Source of the DNA: Moorella glycerini
Lineage (GTDB): Bacteria; Bacillota; DSM-521; Neomoorellales; Neomoorellaceae
Length of the DNA: 64,000 bases
Assembly (NCBI RefSeq): GCF_009735625.1
Contig: NZ_CP046244.1
Span: forward strand, 3,174,909-3,238,908
Reading direction: 5' to 3'
Every line of letters starts with the position of its first letter. Position 1 is the first letter of the stretch. The notes under the pieces are model-generated. The model saw nothing but the letters and a program-made list of their open reading frames with translations. It was not told the DNA's origin and made no database searches. The translations under genes were made by a program, and so were the position numbers. Positions 25,093 to 41,092 of this stretch are shown piece after piece.

Positions 25093-26322
25093 TTACTGGC
25101 GGGGGCCGCCGCAGCAGCCGGGGTTCTGCCCGTGACTTGCAGCCTGCAAGAGACGGTTCAGACCGCTGTAGATTGTCTTGGAGTTCTTGGCCAGCAAGGG
25201 CCCTAAAATGGCTAATATCAGCACGTAAAGGGCCGTAAAAGGCTGTAGCCCGGGCTGGAGTCCGGCAGCCCGGGCTAAATTATTAATAATTATGGAAAAT
25301 TCCCCCCGCGCGACGATTGTTAAGCCGATGTTGGTAGAAGCCCGAAAGGAAAAGCCCGCACTGCGGCCCGCCAGCATCCCTGCAACGAAGTTGCCGATGA
25401 GCGTCAGCACTACCGCCATCAGAGCCGGCCAAATCGCCCCTCCGAGGGATAGGGGATCGACTTCCAGACCAAAGCTGAAAAAAAACAGGGCGCCAAAAAA
25501 ATCTCTGAAGGGCACTATTAGGTGTTTAATACGCTCGATATGGTCGGTTTCCGCCAGGACCAGACCCACCAGCAGAGCGCCGAGGGCATCCGGTACCTGC
25601 AGCGTTTCCGCAATCCCGGCGCCCCAGATAAGCATGGCGAGTAAAACTAACAAAAACGCCTCATCCGAAGGTATGTTCAGCCAGCGGTTAAGCTGCGGCA
25701 TGAGGCGGTGGCCTACCGCCAGGAGCCCAAGTATTACTCCCAAAGCCAAAGCCGCCGAGCTTAAAGCACGTGCGGTGGAAATAGTCCCGCCCAATAAGAG
25801 GCCGGATAAAACGGACAGATAGATGGCGACAAAAACATCCTGGAACATCATCAGTCCCAGAATCATCTCGGTTTCAGGATTGGCCGTCCGTTTCAAGTCC
25901 ACGATTACCTTGGCCACAATGGCGCTCGAAGAAATAGTAGTTATTCCTGCTGCCACCAGGATCTCACGCAACGGCCAACCTAACAGCCAGGGGAAAACAA
26001 CCCCCAACATAAAGTTGATGGACATATAAACCGTTCCGCCGGTGATGATGGAGCGGCTCGCCCGCATGAGACGGCCAAGGGAAAATTCCAATCCCAAGTA
26101 AAACATTAAGAATAGTACGCCTAAACGCCCCAATAGGTTAATCACGGGCGCGCTCACTATGAACCTAAAATCTAATACCCCTACGCGCGGCGCGTGGGGG
26201 CCAACAACCATACCTGCCAGGATCAGGATCGGTACTATAGAAAACCGTAACCGTACGGCTAAAATCCCGCAAAGAGCTATAAGCACCAGGGCAAGGCCGA
26301 TTTCCAGCAAGATGTACTCCAT
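25093..26322 (-). CDS. khtU: Cation/proton antiporter, CPA2 family (KhtU/KefB-like)
   Basis: A 409-residue protein with about 12 membrane segments and CPA2 markers: an N-terminal VGPHAPRVGVLD, FLMFYLGLEFSLGRLMRASR, the discontinuous-helix region AGITTISSSAIVAKVIVDLK and ALLVGLVLAETDHIERIKHL. There is no C-terminal RCK domain; the regulatory domain is instead the separate protein of the upstream gene, only 3 bases away. This pairing matches KhtTU of Bacillus, which exports potassium in exchange for protons and is gated by KhtT. Ion specificity here is inferred from the pairing. Confidence 0.82.
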   Translation of the reverse strand: MEYILLEIGLALVLIALCGILAVRLRFSIVPILILAGMVVGPHAPRVGVLDFRFIVSAPVINLLGRLGVLFLMFYLGLEFSLGRLMRASRSIITGGTVYMSINFMLGVVFPWLLGWPLREILVAAGITTISSSAIVAKVIVDLKRTANPETEMILGLMMFQDVFVAIYLSVLSGLLLGGTISTARALSSAALALGVILGLLAVGHRLMPQLNRWLNIPSDEAFLLVLLAMLIWGAGIAETLQVPDALGALLVGLVLAETDHIERIKHLIVPFRDFFGALFFFSFGLEVDPLSLGGAIWPALMAVVLTLIGNFVAGMLAGRSAGFSFRASTNIGLTIVARGEFSIIINNLARAAGLQPGLQPFTALYVLILAILGPLLAKNSKTIYSGLNRLLQAASHGQNPGCCGGPRQ

Positions 26323-26325
26323 GGA

Positions 26326-26823
26326 CTACAGGCTCCCGTGCAAGATCAATCGCTTACAAGCTTTTACCGCTTCCCTGGTGCCTGCCAGAACTAGAGTACA
26401 ATGAGCCGCTATCACCTGGTCCGGGCCGGGCGTGATATGGGTAGTATGATCGGACTCTATAACGGCAATAATGGTAGCACCAGTCTGCTCGCGGACCTTA
26501 AGGCCGCCGATAGTTTTTCCCACCCCAACGGCCCCGGTTTCAACTTTGTACCAATCAATAACCAATTGATCCAGCTCAACCTCCGCCTCTTCTAAAGCGG
26601 TAGGTTTATATACAACGCCTCCCAGGATGGCGCCCACCTGCCTTGCTTCCTGATCGTTTAAAGTTACTGTTGCCGTACATTCCTCCGCGTTGCCCGGATT
26701 AAAAAGGTACAACTCGCGTTTGCCGTCTTCATGGATTATGATAACAAGCTGTTCCCCGCTGCGGGTATTTAGCTGAAACTTGCGTCCAATACCTGGCAAT
26801 TCGATCTCCCGAAGTGGAAGCAT
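26326..26823 (-). CDS. khtT: Antiporter regulatory subunit with TrkA-C/RCK_C domain (KhtT-like)
   Basis: A 165-residue soluble protein. The N-terminal half (LPLREIELPGIGRKFQLNTR, SGEQLVIIIHEDGKRELYLF) matches the KhtT N-terminal domain, and residues about 95-160 form a RCK_C domain (GKTIGGLKVREQTGATIIAV then PGPDQVIAAHCTLVLAGTRE). KhtT binds c-di-AMP and adjusts KhtU activity with pH and cations in Bacillus. It is the first gene of the two-gene unit. Confidence 0.85.
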   Translation of the reverse strand: MLPLREIELPGIGRKFQLNTRSGEQLVIIIHEDGKRELYLFNPGNAEECTATVTLNDQEARQVGAILGGVVYKPTALEEAEVELDQLVIDWYKVETGAVGVGKTIGGLKVREQTGATIIAVIESDHTTHITPGPDQVIAAHCTLVLAGTREAVKACKRLILHGSL

Positions 26824-28562: not shown

Positions 28563-29093
28563 ATGCAACTGGTATACAATTTCGGTATTTCCCTGGAGGA
28601 TTATGCTGCCCGGGGTAAGAAAAATGAGTTTCCCGTCATAGAGTCTTGCCCTATCTGTATGGCCCGGCAGGCTCTAAAGCGGCATGGTTTTTACTGGCGT
28701 AATGCCGGTAGTGACTCGGAAAAGTGGCTACAGCTGCCCATCTGCCGCTTTTGGTGCCGCTCCTGCCGGCACACCTTCTCTCTTTTGCCTTCCTTTCTCC
28801 TGCCGTATTACCAGTATTCCCTTAAGTTCATTCTGGACTGTCTCATATATTTCTTCTCCAAGGCCCGCCTCCTTATTTACTACCAGCTGCTCCAGTTCTA
28901 CCGCCGCCGTTGGGCGAAGAACATGAATTGCATCCAGGCCTTCTTCCGGGAGCAGGGTTACCAGGAAATAATCCCGCCGGAATTTAAACAAAGGGCCATA
29001 AAATTGCTGGAAATGATTGCCGCGTTCCCCAACGCCGAAACCTTTTCCCAAAGGTTCCATAATCATTTCCGGCGCAATTTTATGGCTAATTAA
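28563..29093 (+). CDS. DUF6431-type zinc-ribbon protein of the transposon
   Basis: A 176-residue protein with two cysteine pairs near the N-terminus (ESCPICMARQALKRHG and CRFWCRSCRHTFSLLPS), forming a zinc ribbon, then a basic helical region. Such proteins recur as the first gene of transposons with an rve transposase and ExeA-like ATPase. A DNA-end binding or target-recognition role is inferred from the fold and position. GGGGGG precedes ATG 28563. Confidence 0.78.
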   Translation: MQLVYNFGISLEDYAARGKKNEFPVIESCPICMARQALKRHGFYWRNAGSDSEKWLQLPICRFWCRSCRHTFSLLPSFLLPYYQYSLKFILDCLIYFFSKARLLIYYQLLQFYRRRWAKNMNCIQAFFREQGYQEIIPPEFKQRAIKLLEMIAAFPNAETFSQRFHNHFRRNFMAN

Positions 29094-29235
29094 TTTTACC
29101 ATGCTTTCCCCGGTTCCGTAAAGCCTCCCTGCTACATTAGCCACCACACACCTTTTGCCTGTCCTGGGGGACAGGTTAAGGTTAAACTGGTAAATGACCG
29201 GACCGGTTAACCTTAAATCCTGGGGAGGGGTTGTG

Positions 29236-30492
29236 ATGGACGAGAAGGACCGGGAAAATATCGCTCTTTTTCGCTTTAGCTTGATTGCGCCGTTGTTGCA
29301 GGGTCAGGTAGCCAGCAGGAAGGCCTACCTGGAGAGTATTACGGCCAGACCCCATGAAGTACCGTATTATGGCCTCTGCGACTATAGCCCCCAGACCATT
29401 GCCAGCTGGCTCAGGGATTACCGCCGCGAGGGGTTTGAGGGGTTAAAACCGAAAAGGCGTTCTGACCGGGGAAGGCCGCGGGCCTTATCCCCGGAGTTAC
29501 AGGAGCAACTCCTGGCCCTGCGCCAGGAGGAGCGTTCCTGTCCGGCTTCTGTCTTTTATGAACAACTGGTGGCTAAAGGTGTTATTTTACCGGACGCCGT
29601 TTCTTACGCTACCATTTACCGTTTCCTGAAATCCAGGGGGCTTTTAGGCCGGGAGATGCGGCGGGAGCCGGAACGGAAACGCTTTGCCTATGATACGGTG
29701 AATACCCTCTGGCAGGGGGATGTGGCGGCCGGGCCTTACCTTCGCGTTGGCAACAAAAAGGTGGCTACTTTCCTCTTTGCTTTTATCGATGATTGTTCCC
29801 GCCTGGTGACTTTTGCCCAGTTTTTTACTTCCGAGAAGTTTGAGTCTTTGAAGGTGGTCTTCAAGGAGGCTATCTTACGCCGGGGCATTCCGCAGATGGT
29901 CTACGTGGATAATGGTAAAATCTATCGTTCGGAGCAGCTGCAGCTGGCCTGCGCGGCCCTGGGGATAGCCTTGATCAATACTAAACCCTATGACCCGCAG
30001 AGCAAGGGTAAGATCGAAAGGTTCTTCTTGACCGTCAGGCAGCGTTTCTTGCCCCTGGTTAAAGATGAACACCTTAAATCTCTGGATAACTTGAACCGCT
30101 CTTTCTGGCAGTGGCTGGAGGAAGATTATCACCGCCAGGTCCACAGTGCTTTGGGTATGAGCCCCCTGGATAAGTTTATGTCCCAGTTCAGCCAGGTTAA
30201 GATGGTGAGCGACCCGGCTGTTCTGGAGCCGCTTTTTTTCAAGCGGGAGGAACGGCGGGTACATCATGATGCTACTATCTCCATTAACAAGCGCCTTTTT
30301 GAGGTGCCGCCTCAATTTATCGGCAACCGGGTGGAGGTGCGCTTTGACCCGGAAAAACTGGAGCGGGTCTTGATTTTTGTGGCCGGTAAAGAGGTGGCGG
30401 TGGCACAGCCGGTGGCGCTCAGTGTTAACGCCCGGGCAAAGCGGGAGAGCAAACTTTCTTTTGCCAGCTTACAGGGAGGGGGCCAAAACTAG
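29236..30492 (+). CDS. DDE (rve-type) transposase, TnsB/IS481-like
   Basis: About 418 residues from ATG 29236, chosen for GGGGAGGGG just upstream. The N-terminal part has helix-turn-helix segments (YSPQTIASWLRDYRREGFEG). The catalytic core shows the DDE triad in LWQGDVAAGPYL, MVYVDNGKIYRSEQL and SKGKIERFFLTVRQRF. The C-terminal part resembles the beta-barrel of Mu-type transposases (RLFEVPPQFIGNRVEVRFDP). All catalytic residues are present and no frameshift is seen, so it may be active. The ATPase gene begins one base after its stop. Confidence 0.88.
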   Translation: MDEKDRENIALFRFSLIAPLLQGQVASRKAYLESITARPHEVPYYGLCDYSPQTIASWLRDYRREGFEGLKPKRRSDRGRPRALSPELQEQLLALRQEERSCPASVFYEQLVAKGVILPDAVSYATIYRFLKSRGLLGREMRREPERKRFAYDTVNTLWQGDVAAGPYLRVGNKKVATFLFAFIDDCSRLVTFAQFFTSEKFESLKVVFKEAILRRGIPQMVYVDNGKIYRSEQLQLACAALGIALINTKPYDPQSKGKIERFFLTVRQRFLPLVKDEHLKSLDNLNRSFWQWLEEDYHRQVHSALGMSPLDKFMSQFSQVKMVSDPAVLEPLFFKREERRVHHDATISINKRLFEVPPQFIGNRVEVRFDPEKLERVLIFVAGKEVAVAQPVALSVNARAKRESKLSFASLQGGGQN

Positions 30493-30493
30493 A

Positions 30494-31294
30494 ATGTACC
30501 AGGCTTTTTATGGCTTAAAAGGGGCTCCTTTTGGCAAGGAGCTAAAACCCCAGGATGCCTTCCTTTCCTGCAGTTTAAAAGAAACGAGGGCCCGGCTGGA
30601 GTATTTATCCCGCGTCCGGGGCATGGGGGTCCTGGTGGGGGAACCGGGAGCCGGTAAGACCTTTGCCTTGCGGGTCTTTTGTGCTAATTTAAACCCGGCC
30701 CTCTTTAAGGTTATTTATTTGCCCCTGGCCACAGGGACGGTCATGGATTTTTACCGCGGTTTGGCCCGGGGCCTGGGGGAAGAACCGTCTTTCCGCAAGA
30801 TTGACCTTTTTCACCAGATCCAGCAGGCGGTCCAGGTGTTCTTCCGGGATAAAAAGATTACGCCCGTCTTCATCCTGGATGAGATGCACCTGGCTAACCC
30901 CAAATTCCTGCTGGACCTGGCCCTGCTCTTTAATTTCGCCATGGACGCCTTTAATCCTTTTATCCTGGTCCTGGCCGGCTTGCCTTTTTTGTTGAGCCGC
31001 TTGGAGTTGAACCAGACCCAGTCTCTGGCCCAACGCCTGGTGGTTCGCTTCCAGGTGGAACCTTTAAACCGTGAGGAGGTGGGCGCCTACCTGGAGCACC
31101 ATTTATCCCTGGTGGGGGCTACCAGGCCTTTATTTGAGCCGCCTGCCGTCGAGGCCATCGCTTCTCGCTCCCGCGGCTGGCCGCGCCTGGTGAACAACCT
31201 GGCCCTGACTTCCCTCCTCTGGGGCGCCCAGCTTAAAGCCCAGCTGATTAGTGCTGATGTGGTCCGCCAGGCAGCTGCCGAAATTGGCCTCTAA
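30494..31294 (+). CDS. AAA ATPase, TnsC/ExeA-like transposition regulator
   Basis: A 266-residue ATPase starting at ATG 30494, one base after the transposase stop. Features are the family opening MYQAFYGLKGAPFGKELKPQ, Walker A GEPGAGKT near 49-56, Walker B VFILDEMH near 127-134, and a sensor arginine region ALTSLLWGAQ in the C-terminal lid. TnsC, MuB and IstB relatives select targets and stimulate the DDE transposase. Confidence 0.88.
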   Translation: MYQAFYGLKGAPFGKELKPQDAFLSCSLKETRARLEYLSRVRGMGVLVGEPGAGKTFALRVFCANLNPALFKVIYLPLATGTVMDFYRGLARGLGEEPSFRKIDLFHQIQQAVQVFFRDKKITPVFILDEMHLANPKFLLDLALLFNFAMDAFNPFILVLAGLPFLLSRLELNQTQSLAQRLVVRFQVEPLNREEVGAYLEHHLSLVGATRPLFEPPAVEAIASRSRGWPRLVNNLALTSLLWGAQLKAQLISADVVRQAAAEIGL

Positions 31295-31296
31295 GG

Positions 31297-31608
31297 GTGG
31301 TGGCTATGCTTAAGCTTGCTTCCCCCAGAGACGTGGAAAGTCTCCTGGAGATCCTGGCTTTCGTCCTCTGGGCGAATACTTTTGGGTCCTACGGTGAGGA
31401 ATTGGAACGCCCGGTATTGGATTTCGCCCGCGACCTTTACGCTGAATTGCTAAAATACCTGGAGTCTTTCTATACCGCCCGCGAGGAACCCCATTATTAC
31501 AGCTTTATTTGCCAGTTGCAACTGGAACAAGGATTTGATTTCCAGAGAAAACGCCTGGCTGCCCTTGATAAAAAATTGGCGGAACGGTTCAAGGCCCCTT
31601 CTTTTTAG
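31297..31608 (+). CDS. Small helical protein of the transposon, unknown function
   Basis: About 100-103 residues (GTG 31297 or ATG 31306), predicted largely helical with an acidic central part (GEELERPVLDFARDLYAELL). It starts directly after the ATPase gene, ends just before a terminator and lies inside the terminal repeats, so it travels with the element. I recognise no family. Confidence 0.65.
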   Translation: MVAMLKLASPRDVESLLEILAFVLWANTFGSYGEELERPVLDFARDLYAELLKYLESFYTAREEPHYYSFICQLQLEQGFDFQRKRLAALDKKLAERFKAPSF

Positions 31609-31766: not shown

Positions 31767-31825
31767 TAATAGCCCGGCGGACAATGATATTGGGATGGTT
31801 TAAATGGGGCAATAAAAAACCCAAA

Positions 31826-31912
31826 GAAAAAACTCCTGTCCCTTACAGACAGGAGTCATCGGCGCGTAAGGCGCATTTTCGAGATCCTCCGGGCCGACTC
31901 CTTGGCCTTAGC
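31826..31912 (-). promoter_or_regulatory. Fluoride-riboswitch-like element with extra hairpin, orphan copy
   Basis: Reading leftward: hairpin GGCC-AAGGAGUC-GGCC, a short extra hairpin (GAG-GAU-CUC), CGAAAAU, hairpin GCGC-CUUAC-GCGC, then CGAUGACUCCUGUC. The loop GGAGUC can pair with GACUCC, as in the fluoride aptamer pseudoknot. The 3' side is reused in an intrinsic terminator (ACUCCUGUC...GACAGGAGU, then a run of U). The same layout recurs at 39177-39262. Ordinary fluoride aptamers have only a short linker where the extra hairpin lies here. The RNA points into the right end of the transposon, so its former target gene is gone. Confidence 0.6.
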
Positions 31913-32049
31913 TTAACTTAACTATATAATCTTTATTATTAAATGTCAATTTCCTTGTCATATAATTTGGGGTTATTTCCCCTTGACATACTAAAGGCCG
32001 GGCTGTTAAATTTAAATACGAACTGGAATACTTGGAGAAGAGACTTCTC

Positions 32050-32175
32050 CAAACGGTGATGGAGTTCACCGGAAAAACCACCCGTAAGGGTTGATGACTC
32101 CTACCAAGGATCAAATTCCTGGTAGGAGAATGTGCAGTTAGCCCAACTCCTACCAGGTAGAGTCTGGAGGAGTTT
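32050..32175 (+). promoter_or_regulatory. Fluoride (crcB) riboswitch upstream of the dynamin-like gene
   Basis: The aptamer core is GGUG-AUGGAGUU-CACC at 32055-32070, a CCC-GUAA-GGG stem at 32081-32090, and UUGAUGACUCCUACC at 32091-32105, matching the conserved fluoride aptamer including the GGAGU/ACUCC pseudoknot. Downstream, CTGGTAGGAG (32119-32128) can pair either with the aptamer strand CTCCTACCA or with CTCCTACCAG at 32147-32156. That second strand can alternatively pair with GGAGGAGT (32166-32173), forming a hairpin that ends in TTTTTTT and covers the ribosome site. This gives a simple three-strand switch expected to turn the gene on with fluoride. Confidence 0.9.
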
Positions 32176-32179
32176 TTTT

Positions 32180-33991
32180 ATGAGCCAGGTAAGGCAAGAT
32201 CAGCAAGCGAAGGTAACTAAAGATGCAAGTACCCTTTTTTTACAAACTTTAGAGCTTCTGAATGGCTTGGGGCCAGAATTTGAAGAAGTGAGACAAAAGA
32301 TCCAGGCCTTGCAAGAGCGGCTTTTAAACGAACGCTTTCACCTTGCCGTTCTCGGGCAGTTCAAGCGCGGTAAAAGTACCTTTATAAACGCTCTTCTGGG
32401 CGATGAAGTGTTACCCACAGCCATCCTGCCCCTGACTGCCGTTCCTACCTTTCTTCTCTGGGGTCCCGAGATCCGTGCCCGCGTTCTCCGCCAGGAGGGC
32501 CACCAAAGAGAAGAATTTACAGGCCGGGACACTAGAGCTTTAACTGCTTTTCTTGCGCAATTCGTTACTGAAGCAGGGAATCCCAAAAATCATAAAAAGG
32601 TATCCCAGGTTGAGGTCTTCTACCCCTCCCCTCTTCTTCACAAAGGAGTAGTCTTAATCGATACTCCCGGCATTGGTTCAACTTTCCGGCATAACACTGA
32701 AGCTACACTTAACTTCCTGCCCCAGTGTGATGCTGCCTTATTTCTCGTTTCGGCGGATCCGCCGATCACCGAGGTGGAAGTAGAATTTCTGAAAGCGGTC
32801 CGTTCCAAGGTTACTCACCTTTTCTTTATTTTAAATAAGGTAGATTATCTCAATAAGGAAGAAATAACATCTCTTTTAACCTTCATTAAAAATGTTTTGC
32901 GGGAGCAAATTGGCATAGAAGGAGACCCCCCCATCTTCTGCGTGTCGGCCCGTCTGGGACTTGAGGCCCGAAAAACGAATGATACCGCCCTCTGGAATCA
33001 TAGCGGCCTGGAAGAAGTCTGGCGTTATCTTGTTGATTTTCTTGCTCGCGATAAAAACAACGCCCTGCAGGCAGCCCTGGCTAAAAAAGCTATCGATATA
33101 ATTGCCGACATTATAATGCGCTTGCAGCTTACCATTCGTTCCCTGGAGATGCCCCTGGCTGAACTAGATGACCGCCTGCAAATATTTGAGAAAAAAATTC
33201 AGGAGGCTGAGCAGCAACGAGTCTTGCTGGGAGATCTCCTGGCCGGCAACCGGAAACGAATGGTGGCGTTTCTGGAGGAACAAGTTGAAGCCTTACGCCA
33301 GAAGGCCCGGACTCACCTGCAAGGAATTGTCCAGGATCGTCTGGCCGGAATGGGTAACAGGTTTAATGAAAATGCAATCCGGGAAACCCTGGCCAATGCC
33401 ATCCCTGATTTTTTTGAACATGAGCTCGGTGAAATGGCGCGCGTTTTTGACCAGCGGGTTACCGAAGTGCTGCGCCCCTACCAGCAACGAGTCGATGAGC
33501 TGATTGAGACGGTGCGGAAAACGGCTGCCGAGCTTTTTGACATTCCTTATCATGCTCCCAGTAGTTCCGGCGCTTTTGAGATGAAACGCCAGCCGTATTG
33601 GGTAACCCACAAGTGGGATTCCAGCTTTAACCTTCTCCCGGAAGGTATATTTACCAGGCTTTTGCCAGAGAGTTTACGCCGGGCAAAGATGACAGAAAAA
33701 TTGAGGCAACAAATTGAAGCCTTGGTTTTAAACAATGTGGAAAACTTGCGCTGGGCCACTTTACAGAATCTAGATCAAGCCTTTCGCCGTTTCGGATCCA
33801 GTCTAGATGAGCGTCTCCAGGCAACCGTTTTAGCTACCCGGGGAGCCATCCAGGCGGCACGGTCAAAACGCCTGGAGCATACCCAGAATGTGGTTCAAGA
33901 GATTACCAGGCTCCAGTCCATTACCAGGGAATTCTCGGAAATTCAGGCCAAATTCGAGGCATTCATTGAGGGTCAAGGAGTTTGGAGGTAA
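32180..33991 (+). CDS. Dynamin-like GTPase (bacterial, fluoride-controlled)
   Basis: A 603-residue GTPase starting at ATG 32180 behind GGAGGA. G1 is LGQFKRGKST (about 58-67), G3 is LIDTPGIGST (159-168) and G4 is LNKVD (218-222), in the Dynamin_N arrangement. From about 300 to the end it is mostly helical with long coiled-coil stretches (ELDDRLQIFEKKIQEAEQQR) and basic patches, like the stalk of bacterial dynamin-like proteins. No membrane segment is obvious. The fluoride riboswitch directly upstream places it in the fluoride response. Fluoride-metal complexes mimic the gamma-phosphate of GTP, and bacterial dynamins protect membranes under stress; either link is conjecture. It is followed 4 bases on by the DUF6062 gene. 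Confidence 0.83.
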   Translation: MSQVRQDQQAKVTKDASTLFLQTLELLNGLGPEFEEVRQKIQALQERLLNERFHLAVLGQFKRGKSTFINALLGDEVLPTAILPLTAVPTFLLWGPEIRARVLRQEGHQREEFTGRDTRALTAFLAQFVTEAGNPKNHKKVSQVEVFYPSPLLHKGVVLIDTPGIGSTFRHNTEATLNFLPQCDAALFLVSADPPITEVEVEFLKAVRSKVTHLFFILNKVDYLNKEEITSLLTFIKNVLREQIGIEGDPPIFCVSARLGLEARKTNDTALWNHSGLEEVWRYLVDFLARDKNNALQAALAKKAIDIIADIIMRLQLTIRSLEMPLAELDDRLQIFEKKIQEAEQQRVLLGDLLAGNRKRMVAFLEEQVEALRQKARTHLQGIVQDRLAGMGNRFNENAIRETLANAIPDFFEHELGEMARVFDQRVTEVLRPYQQRVDELIETVRKTAAELFDIPYHAPSSSGAFEMKRQPYWVTHKWDSSFNLLPEGIFTRLLPESLRRAKMTEKLRQQIEALVLNNVENLRWATLQNLDQAFRRFGSSLDERLQATVLATRGAIQAARSKRLEHTQNVVQEITRLQSITREFSEIQAKFEAFIEGQGVWR

Positions 33992-33995
33992 AAAT

Positions 33996-34715
33996 ATGTC
34001 AATCGCGTCTGCTTATATTCAACTGGAAACAGCGTTAAAAAAGCCGGGTTGTCCAATTTGTACCATCGCTAAGGAAACCGGCAGGCGATATCTCGATAAC
34101 TTGTTGTATGAGTATGTTAATGACCCGCTTATACGTTCCTGCATTGAAGCCTCGTGGGGCTTTTGCCAGCAACACACCAGGGAACTTATGGATTTCAGCA
34201 TCTATAGCCTGGGTATTGCCATAATCAATGAAGGCCTCCTGGATAACTGGGCTAAACACCTTACCAATCCGGCCAATTTTCTTTCTGCTGACAACAAAAG
34301 CAGCTTCCCGAGGCTGTTGAAGCGCCATTCTCAAGAAGGACCGGGCAGCAAACTCGCTGCCGCCCTGAAACCTACAAATTCCTGCCCCGCCTGTAGGAGT
34401 GAGGAAGAAATAACCCAGACTATCCTTCGTGAATTAAATTATCAAGTAGCCGCTAATGATGGCAACATCACCGCCTTATATGACAAATCCCCCGGGTTAT
34501 GCCTACCCCATTTTCGCCGGGCTATAGCTTTGGCAGAGAACCTAGCCAGCGTTAAAATGCTAGTGCAGTTGCAACTTAAAAAAATTCAGGCCTTACAACA
34601 TGAGCTCAAAGAATTCATTCGCAAACAGGACTATCGTTTTATCGACGAACCCCGCGGCCAGGAAAAGGATTCCTGGAGAAGAAGCTTAACCCTGCTGGCC
34701 GGATATGCAACTTAA
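33996..34715 (+). CDS. DUF6062-type protein with two CxxC/CxxH zinc-like sites
   Basis: A 239-residue protein starting at ATG 33996 after GGAGG. It has two parallel half-sites: GCPICTIAKETG with GFCQQHTRELMD, then SCPACRSEEE with GLCLPHFRRAIA. CxxC followed about 35-40 residues later by CxxH, twice, suggests two zinc ions or an internal duplication. It appears soluble and helical. DUF6062 proteins are of unknown function. It is translated with the dynamin-like GTPase (4-base gap) and thus presumably also fluoride-induced. A diverged copy of its last 26 codons lies at 37838-37920. Confidence 0.7.
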   Translation: MSIASAYIQLETALKKPGCPICTIAKETGRRYLDNLLYEYVNDPLIRSCIEASWGFCQQHTRELMDFSIYSLGIAIINEGLLDNWAKHLTNPANFLSADNKSSFPRLLKRHSQEGPGSKLAAALKPTNSCPACRSEEEITQTILRELNYQVAANDGNITALYDKSPGLCLPHFRRAIALAENLASVKMLVQLQLKKIQALQHELKEFIRKQDYRFIDEPRGQEKDSWRRSLTLLAGYAT

Positions 34716-34743
34716 TGGTTCCTTGTTGTTTCGTTGAATGAAT

Positions 34744-36246
34744 TTAATTGTCTTTTCCGAATATGCTGTTATACAAATCTTCGCCATAACTAGTTTGCAA
34801 GGGTTCACCTTCGATTAACTTAAAAGTTCGTGTTCCGTCGGCTTGCCTTTCAGCCCGCAGGAAAAGTGCAGTTGCCATTTTTTTATCGAAAAAGCCATGG
34901 GCAAATTCATATAAATGCGTAACGAAAAAAACCTTGATGTGTTTTTCCAATAAAGCGCTTACTATCTGCCTTGCAATCTCCGAACCTTCTCTTTCGTTTG
35001 TCGCGGCAAATGATTCATTAAACAGCACCATGGAATTTGACGTTATATGGTCTATGATATCGCTCATTCTGCTAAGTTCTTCATCGAGTTTGCCGCTTTT
35101 CATGGTAACGTCTTCTTCCCGTTTGTAGTGCGTGAAAAGGCTGTCGCAGAAATTGGCGCAGAAAGATTCAGCCGGCACAAACATACCGCATTGCATCATT
35201 AATTGGGCCAAACCTATGCTGCGCAAAAAAGTCGATTTGCCACCCTGATTGGCGCCTGTAATTATTACGAGCTCTTTATTGTCGGCATTCACATCATTGC
35301 CTACAATTTTTTGTTCCAGGGTTAAAGCCAGACAGACGTCGTATAATCCTTTAAAAGAATGTCTGCGTTCGCCGGGAGCTACAGGGAGGGGAAAGCACGT
35401 TGGCTCCCCTATGTGAGTAAGGCGTTCATACAAGTTCAAACAACCGATGTAAAAGGCCAATTCGGTCCGCAAAACGTTAAAAAAACTGAGAATATGATCA
35501 TTGGACTGGGCGAGGGCATTGGCAACAAGGTTGATCCCCCTGTCTTTTAATTCCGACAGGGCCCTCGCCCCGCTTTCGTCGCGATCGGCGATATAAAAGG
35601 TGTAAACGGGCGCTTTTTTGGTAAAAACTCTCTCTATCCAGCTCTGTTTTTTATCTTGGGGTTTACGGAGAATGTAATTGATACCTTTATTACCTTTTCC
35701 TAGTTCAGCGCTGATCAAAACTCCCTCACGGAATTTCAGTTCCTTTAGATGATTTTGGATGCAGGCGAAATATTCATCGCTAAGTTCTTTGTTGAGCATC
35801 GCGAAAAAAGCGGTAAAGCCGTCTGATTCAAATTTATCGGCATGTTCATCGGCGATAGTTCTTAGTTTTTTAAGCATGTCCACAAACATCTGCAACACTT
35901 CTACCGATCTATACAATATGGCAGCAGGGTATCTGCTGAAAATGCTTAAGTAATTTTTTTTCTCTTTTTCAATTGATTCTACCGCGATATCGTAGATAGC
36001 CCTGACAATGGCAGAATTTTTCAGGCAATCTCTTAAAATATCCTGCCGGTATAATACTGTCTCCAGATCATTATTTAAACCGGACAAAACGGCTTTTTGG
36101 GCCACATCAAATAGAAATTTGTCACCGAGGGCCATGGCGTTGAACAGCGTGTTTAATTCCAGATCTTGGGTCAGCGCTTGTTCATTCCACGGTAATTTCT
36201 CCTGAAGGTCAAAATCATGATCTTTAAACATGAGAAAAACCTTCAT
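34744..36246 (-). CDS. MutS-like ATPase, second of a pair
   Basis: About 500 residues from ATG 36246, which overlaps the stop of the upstream gene (ATGA). Only the MutS core (helical lever) and ATPase domain V are present: Walker A TGANQGGKSTFLRSIGLAQL near 328-347, SLFTHYKREEDVTMKSGKLD, Walker B-like MVLFNESFAATNEREGSEIA and VFFVTHLYEF. The mismatch-binding domain is missing, so a role in mismatch repair is unlikely; it resembles the shortened MutS-related proteins of Firmicutes. It converges with DUF6062, with 28 bases between. The DNA is more AT-rich than the neighbouring genes. Confidence 0.83.
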   Translation of the reverse strand: MKVFLMFKDHDFDLQEKLPWNEQALTQDLELNTLFNAMALGDKFLFDVAQKAVLSGLNNDLETVLYRQDILRDCLKNSAIVRAIYDIAVESIEKEKKNYLSIFSRYPAAILYRSVEVLQMFVDMLKKLRTIADEHADKFESDGFTAFFAMLNKELSDEYFACIQNHLKELKFREGVLISAELGKGNKGINYILRKPQDKKQSWIERVFTKKAPVYTFYIADRDESGARALSELKDRGINLVANALAQSNDHILSFFNVLRTELAFYIGCLNLYERLTHIGEPTCFPLPVAPGERRHSFKGLYDVCLALTLEQKIVGNDVNADNKELVIITGANQGGKSTFLRSIGLAQLMMQCGMFVPAESFCANFCDSLFTHYKREEDVTMKSGKLDEELSRMSDIIDHITSNSMVLFNESFAATNEREGSEIARQIVSALLEKHIKVFFVTHLYEFAHGFFDKKMATALFLRAERQADGTRTFKLIEGEPLQTSYGEDLYNSIFGKDN

Positions 36247-37778
36247 AATTTTATCCGCTCCTTTAAACAATCGTATGTGAGTCGATACTTTTCGGCAATT
36301 GCTAGCGCGTATGCAAGTCCATCGGCAGGCCTTCTTACAATTTTATATGTTCGTACTGCCGGATTTTCGGGTACTACCGTGCTGACCATGCTTACGGTTT
36401 TCTCGCTTAAAAAAGCCAATTCATCTATGAAGGTTACGCAAACGCATAATAAATCAAGTTGTATTATCCTCTCCATTACTTTCCGGCTCAAATATATAGC
36501 ATCTTTTAATGTTGTGGAAGTGAAAATCTCGTTCATGATGATGATGCTATTGCAAGTGGCCTTGTTGAGGATATCGTGTATCCTGACCAAATCATCCTGT
36601 AGCTTGCCACGGAGATTTTTAACGTTTTCTTCCTTTTCAAAATGGGTAAAAAGCTTGTCGAAGAGAAAGAGGCGCGCTTCCCTGCCCGGGACGGGGCAAC
36701 CAAGGCTGGCCAAATAATGCAGCTGTCCGAAGGTACGGGCAAAGGTTGTTTTACCGCCCTGGTTCGGACCGGTTACTACAAATATACGCTCCTTACCTTT
36801 TAGGTAAAAATCATTACAGACAACGGCTGAGCCTTCGTTAATGAGTTTATAAGCCAGGGCCAAATCAAATCCTTCATAATCATAAACTTCCTTACATGTA
36901 CTGGAAATTTGCGGATAGCAAAATTTCAATCCCTTTCGTTTGAATATCGCGACATACTCCAGATAAGCAATGTAAAATTGTATCTCCCGATCAAAAACGG
37001 CTATCGTTTCATCCAGATAATTGCCGTTTTCCATACAGTAATTATCAAGGCGCAAAAATATATCGGCATACAATTGGGCAACTAAATCAAGTATTTTTGC
37101 TTCAACATGGTTCATATCCGGCCAAGTGGAAAATTCAACCTTGTAATCTTTCACCGCTCCTTGCTTGAATTTCTCAAATGTTTTTTCCACTTCCGCGCTA
37201 TAATCAATCTCATCTTCATATTTGCGGACCTTGATGCGGTTACCTTTGATGAGTAAACAATATTTTACGGTAGATAAATCGGCTTTTAGCTTTTTCGTTT
37301 CTGTTAGCAAAGACCTAAAACGGTCGGAATGGGTATAGTTTATCAGATATTCGCGGAAGGCTAAAAAGCCGCGTGATTTTAACTCTATAAGGGTTAAATC
37401 ATGTACCAGGCAATTAACGGCGTCGCAGTAAATTTCTACCGCATCTAAAAACCATCTTTCCTTTTGGTATTTATAATAAAGCTTGTCTGCTTGGGTGAGA
37501 TGTTCGCGCATTGTGCGCATTTTTTGGGTAAATGATTTTATATGCTCAAAGAATGTTTTATTTTCCAGATCCTGCATTATTTCATGACGATAGTTGATCG
37601 CGTCGATATCGTTCAACGAAGTGTAAAAAAACGGTTTTAAATTATATTCTTCTTTGCCGGCCGTAATGGTGTCTATAATCTGATCCAGATTTAAATCAAC
37701 AAAAAAGATGGGAGCTTCGAGTGTTTCTTTTATTATCCCGTCTTCAGTTTTTTTAAATAGTATGCTTTGGAAAGTCAT
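36243..37778 (-). CDS. MutS-like ATPase, first of a pair
   Basis: About 511 residues from ATG 37778, chosen for GGGAGGTG upstream. ATPase motifs are VVTGPNQGGKTTFARTFGQL near 333-352, KLFTHFEKEENVKNLRGKLQ, SIIIMNEIFTSTTLKDAIYL and VCVTFIDELA; in the last motif the usual TH is TF. It is similar in layout to the next gene and overlaps it by 4 bases, so the two probably form a heterodimer as MutS-family ATPases do. No DNA mismatch-binding domain is present. Genes for MutS-like proteins have been noted near fluoride-responsive RNAs in other bacteria, but no riboswitch lies directly upstream here. Confidence 0.83.
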   Translation of the reverse strand: MTFQSILFKKTEDGIIKETLEAPIFFVDLNLDQIIDTITAGKEEYNLKPFFYTSLNDIDAINYRHEIMQDLENKTFFEHIKSFTQKMRTMREHLTQADKLYYKYQKERWFLDAVEIYCDAVNCLVHDLTLIELKSRGFLAFREYLINYTHSDRFRSLLTETKKLKADLSTVKYCLLIKGNRIKVRKYEDEIDYSAEVEKTFEKFKQGAVKDYKVEFSTWPDMNHVEAKILDLVAQLYADIFLRLDNYCMENGNYLDETIAVFDREIQFYIAYLEYVAIFKRKGLKFCYPQISSTCKEVYDYEGFDLALAYKLINEGSAVVCNDFYLKGKERIFVVTGPNQGGKTTFARTFGQLHYLASLGCPVPGREARLFLFDKLFTHFEKEENVKNLRGKLQDDLVRIHDILNKATCNSIIIMNEIFTSTTLKDAIYLSRKVMERIIQLDLLCVCVTFIDELAFLSEKTVSMVSTVVPENPAVRTYKIVRRPADGLAYALAIAEKYRLTYDCLKERIKL

Positions 37779-37837
37779 GAGAAGAACACCTCCCTGCCAA
37801 ACAGCACGCTGTAGAAATTCCATGGACAAAGAGTGCC

Positions 37838-37920
37838 TCTTGTTTTATTAACGAACCGCGTGGTCAGGAAAGGGATTTCTGGATAAGCAGTTTACACCTG
37901 CTGGCGGGTTATAAAAATTA
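37838..37920 (+). pseudogene. 3' end remnant of a second DUF6062 gene
   Basis: The plus strand encodes CFINEPRGQERDFWISSLHL then LAGYKN-stop, closely matching the DUF6062 C-terminus RFIDEPRGQEKDSWRRSLTL LAGYAT at 34636-34715. Nothing of the gene remains upstream. The pair of MutS-like genes therefore sits between two copies of the DUF6062 3' end. Confidence 0.8.
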
Positions 37921-37939
37921 AAGATGGTATTACAGGGAT

Positions 37940-39130
37940 TCAACGAAAAGTATTTTTACCGACATAGAGCATCAGCAACACCGAAAGTAGCTGGGTTGCT
38001 ACTGAAAAGGCTACCACGTATCCTGCTGATAGGTCGTAAAGCATCCCCATTAATGCACTTCCCAGAAACCAAAATATACCATAGCCGGTATTAAACACCC
38101 CATAGGCAGTACCACGCCTGTCAAGGGATATCATATTGGCCACGGCAGCGCGTAAGACGGATTCCTGCGCCCCCATGCCTATGCCCCAAATTACCATTCC
38201 AACCAGAGCCATGGTGAAGCCTCCTAAAAACACCAGAGGGGCAAACAAGGATGAGACCAGACCAGCAATAGCCAAAACATAAATGCCTATCCGGTCGAAC
38301 AAATACCCGAATATTAAAGCAGCAAGGGCATCGGCTATCATGGCGATAGCATAAAGTATGGGAATCCAATTACTTGATACCAGTGATCCTTTGCCTAAAT
38401 GATAAGCAATTAAGGGATAATCAACGTAACCTGCCGCTATGAAAGCAACTGCTACCAGGTAGAGCCAAAATGTTCTTGGTAATCCCTTGCCCGCAGGTAT
38501 GGCTTGGGCCGCTTCCAGCTCTCGAGGAGTTGGGTATAAAAGCCTGGCAACAGCAAGGACTGTAATCGCTAAGATAGCCGGGATAAACAAAACGGCAAAC
38601 CCAGTTTGATAGCCGCCTCTTAAATAAAGTACTAAAGCTACAATCAGCGGGCCGGTAACGGCCCCGATTTGATCCATAGCCTCATGGAGGCCAAATCCCC
38701 ATCCCCTTCCCACTTCCGAAGTAGCGTGGGAAAGCATGGCATCGCGGGCAGGAGTGCGAATAGCTTTGCCTACTCGCTCAGTAATCATCAAAATGGCCGC
38801 TAGCTGCCAGTTGCCTGCCAGGGCCAAAAGGGGTACCGCAAAAAGGTTAAGAATATATCCCACAATTGTAATGGGCCAGTATCTCCCTGTACGGTCGCTT
38901 AAATAGCCGGAAATCAACCGTACGCCGTAACCCAACAATTCGCCTAGTCCGGCAACGAAGCCAACCACTGCCCCGCTAGCCCCCAGCAATGCCAGGAAAG
39001 GCCCGGTAATGCTGCGCGCCCCTTCATAGGTCATATCGGAAAGCAGGCTAACAATCCCTAGTAAGATAATAAATTTAAATGCCTTTTGTAGCGAAGGGGT
39101 TATTTTTTTGCCTTTACTCTGTTCCTCCAT
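37940..39130 (-). CDS. MFS transporter controlled by a fluoride-like riboswitch
   Basis: A 396-residue membrane protein with 12 predicted helices and MFS loop motifs, including YLSDRTGRYWPI after helix 2 and RVGKAIRTPARDAMLSHATS. This subgroup of MFS proteins includes drug and metal efflux candidates without known substrate. AAGGAGG precedes ATG 39130. The leader contains the extra-hairpin variant of the fluoride-like aptamer at 39177-39262, and the neighbouring CPA2/UspA operon is under a normal fluoride riboswitch. An ion or toxic-compound export role is a reasonable inference. Confidence 0.82.
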   Translation of the reverse strand: MEEQSKGKKITPSLQKAFKFIILLGIVSLLSDMTYEGARSITGPFLALLGASGAVVGFVAGLGELLGYGVRLISGYLSDRTGRYWPITIVGYILNLFAVPLLALAGNWQLAAILMITERVGKAIRTPARDAMLSHATSEVGRGWGFGLHEAMDQIGAVTGPLIVALVLYLRGGYQTGFAVLFIPAILAITVLAVARLLYPTPRELEAAQAIPAGKGLPRTFWLYLVAVAFIAAGYVDYPLIAYHLGKGSLVSSNWIPILYAIAMIADALAALIFGYLFDRIGIYVLAIAGLVSSLFAPLVFLGGFTMALVGMVIWGIGMGAQESVLRAAVANMISLDRRGTAYGVFNTGYGIFWFLGSALMGMLYDLSAGYVVAFSVATQLLSVLLMLYVGKNTFR

Positions 39131-39176
39131 CAGGAAACCTCCTTAAAATTTATAGCCCCAAAATAAGGGAATAAAT

Positions 39177-39262
39177 GACTCCTGCCTGCATTATCCAGAC
39201 AGGAGTCATCAGCGCCATGAGCGCATTTTCGAGATTTCTCGAGGCCGACTCCTTGGCCTCGG
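39177..39262 (-). promoter_or_regulatory. Fluoride-riboswitch-like element with extra hairpin, upstream of the MFS gene
   Basis: Reading leftward: CGAGGCC-AAGGAGUC-GGCCUCG (7-bp stem, 8-base loop), then CGAG-AAAU-CUCG which shares bases with the first stem, then AAAAU, hairpin GCGC-UCAUG-GCGC, then UGAUGACUCCUG. Loop GGAGUC complements GACUCC. The 3' strand also forms a stem with CAGGAGUC at 39177-39184 on a following segment, though the U-tract after it is poor (AUUUAUU). The order of elements equals that at 31826-31912. Most loops differ, while the GGAGUC, CUCGAAAAUGCGC and GAUGACUCCUGUC blocks are kept. Confidence 0.6.
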
Positions 39263-39302
39263 ATTAAGCTAAATCAACTTTTCTCCAGAATTTATCCTTC
39301 CC

Positions 39303-39731
39303 TTATTTTTTCCCCTTAATTATTAACACCGGACAGCTCGCCAGTCTTACCACGGCCTCCGAAACGCTTCCTAAAAGGTAACGCTTGATACCACTTAAAC
39401 CCCGGGCACCTAGTACCAGTAGATCATAACCCTCCTCTTCCACCAGGCGGGCCAGGGTATCGGCCGGGTGGCCCGGCACTACTCTGGTGGTTAAGGTTAG
39501 ACCTTCACGGGCAGCCAGGTTTGTAGCTTCTTCCAAAGCTTTGCTAAAAAAGTTTTTGGCATCTTCCAGAACCCCATTAACTTCGTCTCTGGTATCGGCA
39601 AAATCGGGTACATGGGCCACGGAAACAACGGTAATTTGCGCCCCGTATTTTTTAGCCAGGTCGAGGGAAACATGGAGAGCTTTCCTGGCATGAGGCGAAC
39701 CATCGTAGCCTACTAGAATCTTGTTAAACAT
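39303..39731 (-). CDS. Universal stress protein UspA family
   Basis: A 142-residue protein with the ATP-binding type Usp pattern: KILVGYDGSPHARKALHVSL at the N-terminus and GARGLSGIKRYLLGSVSEAV (Gx2Gx9GS) near 113-132, then CPVLIIKGKK. It begins 3 bases after the CPA2 antiporter stop, so it is in the fluoride-riboswitch operon. UspA proteins have been reported in fluoride-responsive operons. Confidence 0.92.
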   Translation of the reverse strand: MFNKILVGYDGSPHARKALHVSLDLAKKYGAQITVVSVAHVPDFADTRDEVNGVLEDAKNFFSKALEEATNLAAREGLTLTTRVVPGHPADTLARLVEEEGYDLLVLGARGLSGIKRYLLGSVSEAVVRLASCPVLIIKGKK

Positions 39732-39734
39732 GGT

Positions 39735-40913
39735 TTAATTACCCTCCTCTTTTTGGGGTATCAATGCATGGCGCCGTTTTTCTTGTTTTACCGCCGGTGC
39801 CAGGTCGGGCCGGAAAAAGGCCTGGGCAATCATTGTCGGTACTACGGCGCTAAGAATAACTACCGTCACCAAAATCGTATACTGGGCCTGGCTGATATAG
39901 CCATGGTTCAAGCCAAACAACGAGGAAATGGTGCCGAAGGTCAGCCCGGTAGACATCAGTAAAGTGGTATACATGCCTTCCCGCGGTTCAAATTTAAAGA
40001 AACGCGTTGCCGGCCAGACACCAATGAATTTAGTTGCTATTTTAATCAAAAGCGCGATGATAATTATCCCGGCGCTGGTAATCACTGCTGGAAGGGAAAC
40101 AAAAAGTCCAGCTTTTAGAAAGTAAAAAGGCGTCAAGAAAGCAAAGGCCATAGTCCGCATTCTTAAAGTCAAATTCTTCTCTTCGAGGAAGAAACCGGCA
40201 ACGGCCAGTCCTAACAGGTAAGCCGGCAAAACAGCTTCGCTATTAGCCATGGAGGCCAGCCCGCCCAGCAAGAAAAGGAGAAAGAACAGGTACTTAATTT
40301 CCAGTTGGCTTACCCGGTTACCATAATGCTGGATAAATAAACGGCTGAAGCGCGGTACTATAGCCAGGACTACGGCTGTTACCGCAATAAATAAGACCAT
40401 CCAGGCATTAAAATTGGCAAAAAGAACTCCCAGGGCCACTACTGTCCCTAGATCCGTTATAAAACAGGCCGCCAGGATAATCCGGCCTAATTCACTTTCA
40501 TTCAGGCCGGTCTCTACCATCACGGCATAGACCACGGCTACGGAGGTAGTCGACAGGGCAATACCGGCAATTTCAGCCGCCGGCAGAGTCCAGCCCAGGG
40601 CATAATAAGCATAGGCAAAAGCCCCGCCAAAAGGCAAAGCAAAGGAAAGCAGACCGATTGCTACGCTTTCTTTAAACCTGCTGCGCAAAACTACCGGATC
40701 GACCTCGGCCCCGGCCAGGAAGGTGAGGATAATGCTGCCAACCCCGGCCAGGAAATCAACCCACGGCGTGGTGTGTAGACCCAAAAAATTACCGCCAATT
40801 ACGCCCACCGCTATTTCCATCAAGGAAATGGAGATCCCTGTCCAACCGGCCAATAAACCTCCTGCCAAAGCTAAACCCAGCCACTCGGCTGCCACGAGCC
40901 ACATGTTTTCCAT
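39735..40913 (-). CDS. CPA2-family cation/proton antiporter under a fluoride riboswitch
   Basis: About 392 residues from ATG 40913, chosen for GGGGAGG upstream. It has about 12-13 membrane segments, FLAGAEVDPVVLRSRFKESV (end of helix 3/4), AEIAGIALSTTSVAVVYAVM and ILAACFITDLGTVVALGVLF, the last with the paired acidic residue of the ion-binding region. There is no C-terminal RCK domain. Its leader carries a fluoride riboswitch (40993-41092). Na+/H+ antiporters are an established class of fluoride-riboswitch targets, possibly by exporting fluoride or restoring proton and cation balance. It is the first gene of a two-gene operon with uspA. Confidence 0.87.
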   Translation of the reverse strand: MENMWLVAAEWLGLALAGGLLAGWTGISISLMEIAVGVIGGNFLGLHTTPWVDFLAGVGSIILTFLAGAEVDPVVLRSRFKESVAIGLLSFALPFGGAFAYAYYALGWTLPAAEIAGIALSTTSVAVVYAVMVETGLNESELGRIILAACFITDLGTVVALGVLFANFNAWMVLFIAVTAVVLAIVPRFSRLFIQHYGNRVSQLEIKYLFFLLFLLGGLASMANSEAVLPAYLLGLAVAGFFLEEKNLTLRMRTMAFAFLTPFYFLKAGLFVSLPAVITSAGIIIIALLIKIATKFIGVWPATRFFKFEPREGMYTTLLMSTGLTFGTISSLFGLNHGYISQAQYTILVTVVILSAVVPTMIAQAFFRPDLAPAVKQEKRRHALIPQKEEGN

Positions 40914-40992
40914 CAGCTTAACCTCCCCTTTTGTTAGACCAGGGATCGGCATGAGCTTTAAAAAGGCTTGGGCAGCTCGGGGCGCGTAACAA

Positions 40993-41092
40993 TAAAAAGC
41001 TCCTACCGATCACTGGCCGCTTTCGGTAGGAGCTATTAGCTCATTGAGCATTAGGCGAGCTCCATCGCCGTTGGGGGGTAATTCGCCCCCCG
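40993..41092 (-). promoter_or_regulatory. Fluoride (crcB) riboswitch upstream of the CPA2 antiporter
   Basis: Reading leftward from 41069: GGCG-AUGGAGCU-CGCC, linker UAAU, hairpin GCUC-AAU-GAGC, then UAAUAGCUCCUACC. The loop GGAGCU complements AGCUCC; compared with the copy at 32050 the pseudoknot pair has changed together (U-A to C-G), supporting the structure. The strand AGCUCCUACC forms the 5' arm of an intrinsic terminator (AGCUCCUACCG...CGGUAGGAGCU followed by UUUUU at 40993-41034), so ligand binding should prevent termination. A GGGGGGCGAAUUACCCCCC hairpin (41072-41092) precedes the aptamer. Confidence 0.83.

Follow-up and report, generated by a model that had tools for sequence, protein, structure and literature searches.

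Fluoride riboswitches of the crcB-motif class (RF01734) have been reported to control genes for exporters, Na+/H+ antiporters, pyrophosphatase, enolase, formate hydrogen lyase, mutS and universal stress proteins (Usp) (PMC2864571, PMC11139923, PMC5533749). In Enterobacter cloacae FRM, the operon ppaC-uspA-eno-gpmA-crcB forms a multi-gene fluoride island that is controlled by a fluoride riboswitch and has transposase genes nearby; as described, it is without dynamin, DUF6062 and MutS-like genes (PMC5533749). Bacterial dynamin-like proteins, such as IniA, BDLP, DynA, the DLP1/2 pair, LeoA and SynDLP, have in common a GTPase domain and a long helical stalk; in the case of IniA, a lipid-interacting loop targets the protein to the membrane, which it remodels (PMC6715688). 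Here, we analysed a locus of Moorella glycerini, situated in a window of 64,000 nucleotides (the whole stretch of DNA under analysis), in which a fluoride aptamer precedes a gene for a dynamin-like GTPase, followed by a gene for a DUF6062 protein (PF19538).

The leader of the dynamin gene shares its aptamer class and its predicted fluoride-ON logic with the crcB-motif regulon, and antiporter, Usp, enolase and mutS genes, already known from that regulon, are neighbours here as well. The difference is that dynamin and DUF6062 are absent from the gene lists examined, that the dynamin pairing extends over many phyla and that the aptamer is the gene's own leader. Compared to the bacterial dynamin-like proteins, which include its best structural matches, the present dynamin has about 17-19% identity, is under predicted fluoride-riboswitch control, carries a PYWVTHKW signature in its tip loop and is encoded by a single gene together with DUF6062 instead of a dynamin pair. 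In the full-text literature covered, which did not extend to the gene list of Baker et al. 2012, dynamin appeared together with fluoride riboswitches or fluoride resistance only in one unrelated chloride review, and DUF6062 nowhere. The pairing of switch and dynamin points to an arm of microbial fluoride defence that apparently has not been reported before.

The aptamer matches the Rfam model RF01734 over its full length (E = 4.8e-13), with a score (Table 1) above the gathering score of 34 bits, which bears out the original prediction, made from the sequence alone, of a fluoride aptamer before the dynamin gene. Its upstream position was correctly predicted, but not the distance of 75 bases, as 69 nt separate the aptamer match from the ATG. 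Three hairpins were predicted in the leader: one of the aptamer's 3' strand with GGUAGGAG (-19.7 kcal/mol), one of GGUAGGAG with the second copy of CUCCUACC (-22.6 kcal/mol) and a terminator hairpin with the Shine-Dalgarno sequence inside (-15.1 kcal/mol). By prediction, the three are mutually exclusive. The same arrangement occurs in five genomes, with a layout common to three other genomes of the genus and to G021, which belongs to another family of the same order; the loops differ. The segment 32118-32178 is more stable than 200 of 200 shuffled sequences (z = -2.97). Without fluoride, pairing of the aptamer's 3' strand with GGUAGGAG would make the downstream CUCCUACC available for a terminator, in which the Shine-Dalgarno sequence would be buried as well. 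When fluoride is present, the aptamer would fold and retain its 3' strand, GGUAGGAG would pair with the downstream CUCCUACC as an antiterminator, and Shine-Dalgarno sequence and ATG would be exposed. A simpler leader, in which the terminator takes the aptamer strand directly, is present in the family-mate G017, and both leaders can be read as fluoride-ON. With the switch leader in five genomes and the pairing in many phyla, the proposed fluoride-riboswitch control of the dynamin and DUF6062 genes is strongly supported at the level of sequence, and the genes would presumably be induced by fluoride in Moorella glycerini.

Table 1 Features of the fluoride island and of related fusion genes; positions are those of the window unless a contig is named.
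Feature	Position	Strand	Evidence or remark
Orphan (fourth) fluoride aptamer, pointing away from dynamin	31843..31916	-	28.3 bits, E 1.2e-5 in whole genome
Fluoride riboswitch aptamer (RF01734) of dynamin gene	32046..32110	+	cmscan 56.6 bits; separate genome-wide search
Expression platform of dynamin gene	32098..32179	+	read from sequence and predicted hairpins
Platform element CUCCUACC (aptamer's own 3' strand)	32098-32105	+	
Platform element GGUAGGAG	32121-32128	+	
Platform element, second CUCCUACC copy	32147-32154	+	
Terminator arm and Shine-Dalgarno GGAGGAG	32166-32172	+	
U-run ahead of dynamin ATG (GGAGGAG-U7-AUG)	32173-32179	+	
Dynamin-like GTPase, 603 aa, fluoride-linked clade	32180..33991 (stop included)	+	Pfam Dynamin_N 100 bits
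DUF6062 protein (PF19538), 239 aa	33996..34715	+	Pfam 97.3 bits (cut-off 27)
MutS-like ATPase (MutS_V only), downstream gene of pair, convergent with DUF6062	34744..36270	-	Pfam 90.1 bits
MutS-like ATPase (MutS_V only), upstream gene of pair	36243..37829	-	Pfam 70.4 bits
MFS transporter	37940..39130	-	Pfam MFS_1 97.3 bits
Third fluoride aptamer, ahead of MFS gene	39193..39267	-	31.5 bits, E 1.1e-6 in whole genome, below gathering score
Universal stress protein	39303..39731	-	Pfam Usp 126.8 bits
CPA2-type Na+/H+ (or K+/H+) antiporter	39735..40952	-	Pfam Na_H_Exchanger 132 bits
Second fluoride aptamer, ahead of CPA2 antiporter and Usp	41020..41078	-	cmscan 37.9 bits
Dynamin_N-DUF6062 fusion	L058:15460-17535	+	contig carries fluoride aptamer too
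Dynamin_N-DUF6062 fusion	L071:2949-5051	-	contig carries fluoride aptamer too

Pfam searches likewise agree with the predicted order of a 603-residue dynamin-like gene and a DUF6062 gene (the cut-off of Dynamin_N is 27 bits). The GTPase motifs GQFKRGKS (G1), DTPG (G3) and NKVD (G4; NKxD) were found in the dynamin, their residues being invariant in 57 homologues, and dN/dS values of 0.25 (comparison with G008) and 0.15 (with G012) indicate purifying selection on the gene. Its AlphaFold model (pLDDT 81.5, pTM 0.71) consists of a GTPase domain and a long helical stalk, with a poorly ordered, partly low-confidence loop (residues 453-496) between two of the longest stalk helices. Structure comparison matched the model to IniA (Z 24.5 over 521 residues), BDLP (Z 22.3 over 530 residues) and also mitofusins, while BDLP was the closest sequence profile in the PDB; as modelled, the protein fits into the membrane-remodelling BDLP/IniA fold class, which would be in keeping with the membrane protection suggested in the original prediction. 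W474 of the tip loop is invariant in the family, W479 is near-invariant and the PYWVTHKW signature is conserved. Since the loop is partly of low confidence in the model, it is from the relatives that we infer a contact of the stalk tip with lipid. No other dynamin was found in the genome to which the window belongs.

To what extent does the pairing recur? A dynamin profile scan of 84,980 species genomes yielded 386 relatives, of which the best 80 were retained, and their loci were scanned with a covariance model; the aptamers used to build it came from the order to which the window belongs. A same-strand aptamer lies at most 500 nt upstream of the dynamin gene in 59 of these best 80 loci (one of them, L079, weak at E 0.3), and in 11 more it is located farther upstream, ahead of the operon, with intervening genes that are usually, for example, MutS-like, antiporter or DUF6062 genes. 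Of the other ten loci, four lie at contig edges and four are on short contigs; in the remaining two (L096, L102), no aptamer was found. Rfam's own model confirmed the aptamer in all 14 distant loci that were re-checked, including contigs of Methanospirillum and Methanolinea. According to the phylum labels as recorded, the best 80 loci span at least 15 phyla, methanogenic archaea included; Bacillota, Atribacterota, Thermodesulfobacteriota, Planctomycetota, Acidobacteriota, Spirochaetota, Chloroflexota, Latescibacterota, Sumerlaeota and Euryarchaeota are among these phyla, and single labels may be wrong because most loci stem from metagenome bins. The association is thus not unique to this strain; uniqueness was an outcome that, according to the original prediction, would have refuted it. 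Of the two families suggested there for a survey of genes downstream of fluoride aptamers, both recur, dynamin across many phyla. These locus scans and the genome counts in Bacillota given below led us to reject a chance or strain-specific pairing. Given the recurrence and the negative literature search, the dynamin can best be described as a new gene family that spans phyla and belongs to a known regulon; the mechanism proposed for it is plausible.

The link is a property of one dynamin clade. Among 398 evenly drawn Bacillota genomes, with clade membership defined by a profile score of at least 328 bits, a fluoride aptamer was present in 30 of the 31 genomes with the clade versus 125 of the 367 others (Fisher P = 1.6e-12), and in the 31st clade genome, G063, a weak aptamer immediately precedes the dynamin gene. 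Genomes of this sample with only low-scoring dynamins showed no enrichment (aptamer in 14 of 39, P = 0.72). On gene maps, 20 of 21 dynamins of 320-500 bits were aptamer-linked and those of 100-320 bits mostly unlinked; here, the unselected counts are preferable, since some mapped loci (L167-L175) had been chosen for DUF6062 with aptamers. A tree, calculated with a quick method and including some long branches, places most unlinked tandem dynamins apart. A general link between dynamins and fluoride was rejected, as a single clade is linked and tandem dynamins mostly are not. The search for plasmid-borne copies turned up distant dynamins only.

DUF6062, the gene of which starts four bases past the dynamin stop, possesses two C-x2-C ... 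C-x2-H sites (C19, C22, C57, H60 and C130, C133, C169, H172) that are invariant in 17 sequences and may bind zinc. The AlphaFold model is all-helical (pLDDT 89.5), and no Foldseek match in the PDB was better than E 1, a result with which a known fold is still compatible. Profile comparison revealed no homology to the dynamin family, and an origin of DUF6062 as a detached part of the latter was rejected. Several Bacillota (L206, L237, L239, L240, L242) show the order aptamer-DUF6062-(antiporter-Usp)-dynamin. In L171, L172 and L175, the aptamer belongs to the DUF6062 gene itself, and the stretch retrieved contains no dynamin. In two related Bacillota contigs, Dynamin_N and DUF6062 are fused, both domains scoring over their Pfam cut-offs. 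The dynamin clade and DUF6062 occur together in 15 of the 398 Bacillota genomes (P = 6.6e-7). As 21 of 53 genomes with DUF6062 are without a fluoride aptamer, its link to fluoride is partial; given fusion, shared operons and co-occurrence, the most fitting reading is that of a partner protein of GTPases of this type, in fluoride settings and beyond them.

The genome (3.56 Mb, 99.97% complete) has three fluoride aptamers beyond the one named in the original prediction, and all four are located within positions 31843-41078 of the window, an island of roughly 9 kb that also carries MutS-like, MFS, Usp and CPA2-antiporter genes; those at 31843 and 39193 score under the RF01734 gathering score. On the convergent minus-strand side, one aptamer precedes the antiporter and Usp genes, and another precedes the MFS gene together with two MutS-like genes. 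The same MutS-like pair (34744-37829, minus strand) is found behind fluoride aptamers in many loci; its downstream gene matches the NCBIfam models of MutS and KamC far below their cut-offs, and DNA repair is possibly not the role of the pair. The orphan aptamer retains a terminator and has no fluoride-type gene downstream now, its counterparts standing ahead of HEAT/DUF190 genes in the relative L156 and ahead of DUF190 beside a CrcB pair in the relative L157; here, those genes are gone. A 51-bp remnant nearby (31772-31822) matches sequence that, in a relative, lies downstream of the HEAT gene and points to a deletion, so that a transposon as sole cause of the orphan aptamer is not supported. 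An IS481-like transposase gene and a neighbouring ATPase gene (28563-31608, plus strand) are inserted beside the island, and a second CPA-type antiporter gene without an aptamer of its own (25093-26823, minus strand) lies on the far side of the transposon; the small protein adjoining it resembles, in our reading, KhtT/KhtU. Further families recurrent in fluoride islands are a HEAT-repeat protein, DUF190, an alpha-alpha toroid protein and a helical family without Pfam match (L047:4756-5259, L072:13213-13560, L055:7327-8172, L094:11752-12222).

A whole-genome search of the window's genome (G000) found no CrcB/Fluc, while a CrcB pair is present in every other genome of the genus searched except G010 (58% complete), which makes the window's genome a useful case. 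Its single CLC contains GSGIP and GREGP, which we take to be motifs of chloride-type CLCs. With no CrcB and a CLC of this type, the cell would have to deal with fluoride through the island's genes for the antiporter, the MFS transporter, the stress protein and the dynamin. Within the genus, G000, G008 and G012 have an intact dynamin, and in other genomes it is fragmentary or missing; since it was lost or has decayed in several of them, it is not essential. In G008, it is followed by enolase instead of DUF6062. The dynamin module is thus accessory, with shuffling gene content.

But, why should a fluoride switch control a dynamin? With moderate confidence, we favour the explanation that a fluoride-ON riboswitch drives a fluoride-dedicated dynamin and its partner DUF6062, which would maintain the membrane under fluoride stress. 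The dynamin would most likely bind to the cytoplasmic membrane through its stalk-tip loop and maintain or remodel it under the acid, ion and envelope stress caused by entry of HF/fluoride, whereas DUF6062, as a zinc-type helical protein with two sites, may serve as regulator or adaptor of the dynamin. It is unlikely that the dynamin acts on proteins instead, as one of a group of NTP-driven machines, the MutS-like ATPases among them, by which enzymes inhibited by metal-fluoride would be stripped or recycled: MutS-like pairs without other MutS domains do recur beside the dynamin, and their ATPase part has a further match, far below the model cut-off, to the aminomutase reactivase KamC, but the modelled full-length fold, stalk included, matches membrane-acting dynamins, and a direct sign of such recycling was not found here. 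Just as unlikely is an action of fluoride on the dynamin itself, in which GDP and a metal-fluoride would mimic the transition state and lock the assembled form, creating a fluoride-responsive device or a minor sink. The invariant GTPase motifs and solved GDP-AlF4 complexes of dynamin-family GTPase domains (e.g. 6djq) are in line with it; however, metal-fluoride trapping is general to such GTPases and leaves the fluoride control of this clade alone unexplained, and, taken as a stoichiometric sink, the protein would seem insufficient for fluoride at micromolar to millimolar levels. A twofold action of fluoride, by riboswitch induction and by a GDP-metal-fluoride lock of the membrane-assembled dynamin with DUF6062 as release or zinc-sensing factor, appears slightly less likely still.

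Enolase under fluoride riboswitches has been read as a spare copy of an inhibited enzyme (PMC11139923), and it neighbours the dynamin in 22 of the best 80 loci. By analogy with enolase and pyrophosphatase, the dynamin could be overproduced because fluoride inhibits it, in line with the earlier idea of a GTPase inhibited by metal-fluoride complexes. We regard this as very unlikely: the dynamin is the only one in the window's genome, so that there is no housekeeping dynamin of which it could be a duplicate, the gene is absent from several genomes of the genus, and housekeeping-type dynamins have no fluoride link. Most improbable of all is that the gene is merely carried along in a mobile fluoride island, regulated without a fluoride-specific purpose; its patchy distribution and decay in relatives would fit, but most loci, from many phyla, have the aptamer in the leader of the dynamin gene itself, the gene is under purifying selection and other dynamins of the same phylum are unlinked.

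Known genes of the fluoride regulon serve ion export, proton buffering and the replacement of inhibited enzymes. That a dynamin with a probable role in membrane maintenance should share this switch in many bacterial phyla and in methanogens implies that damage to the membrane, or its remodelling, may be a general part of fluoride stress. The system offers an inducible single-gene test of bacterial dynamin function and provides a first functional context for DUF6062.
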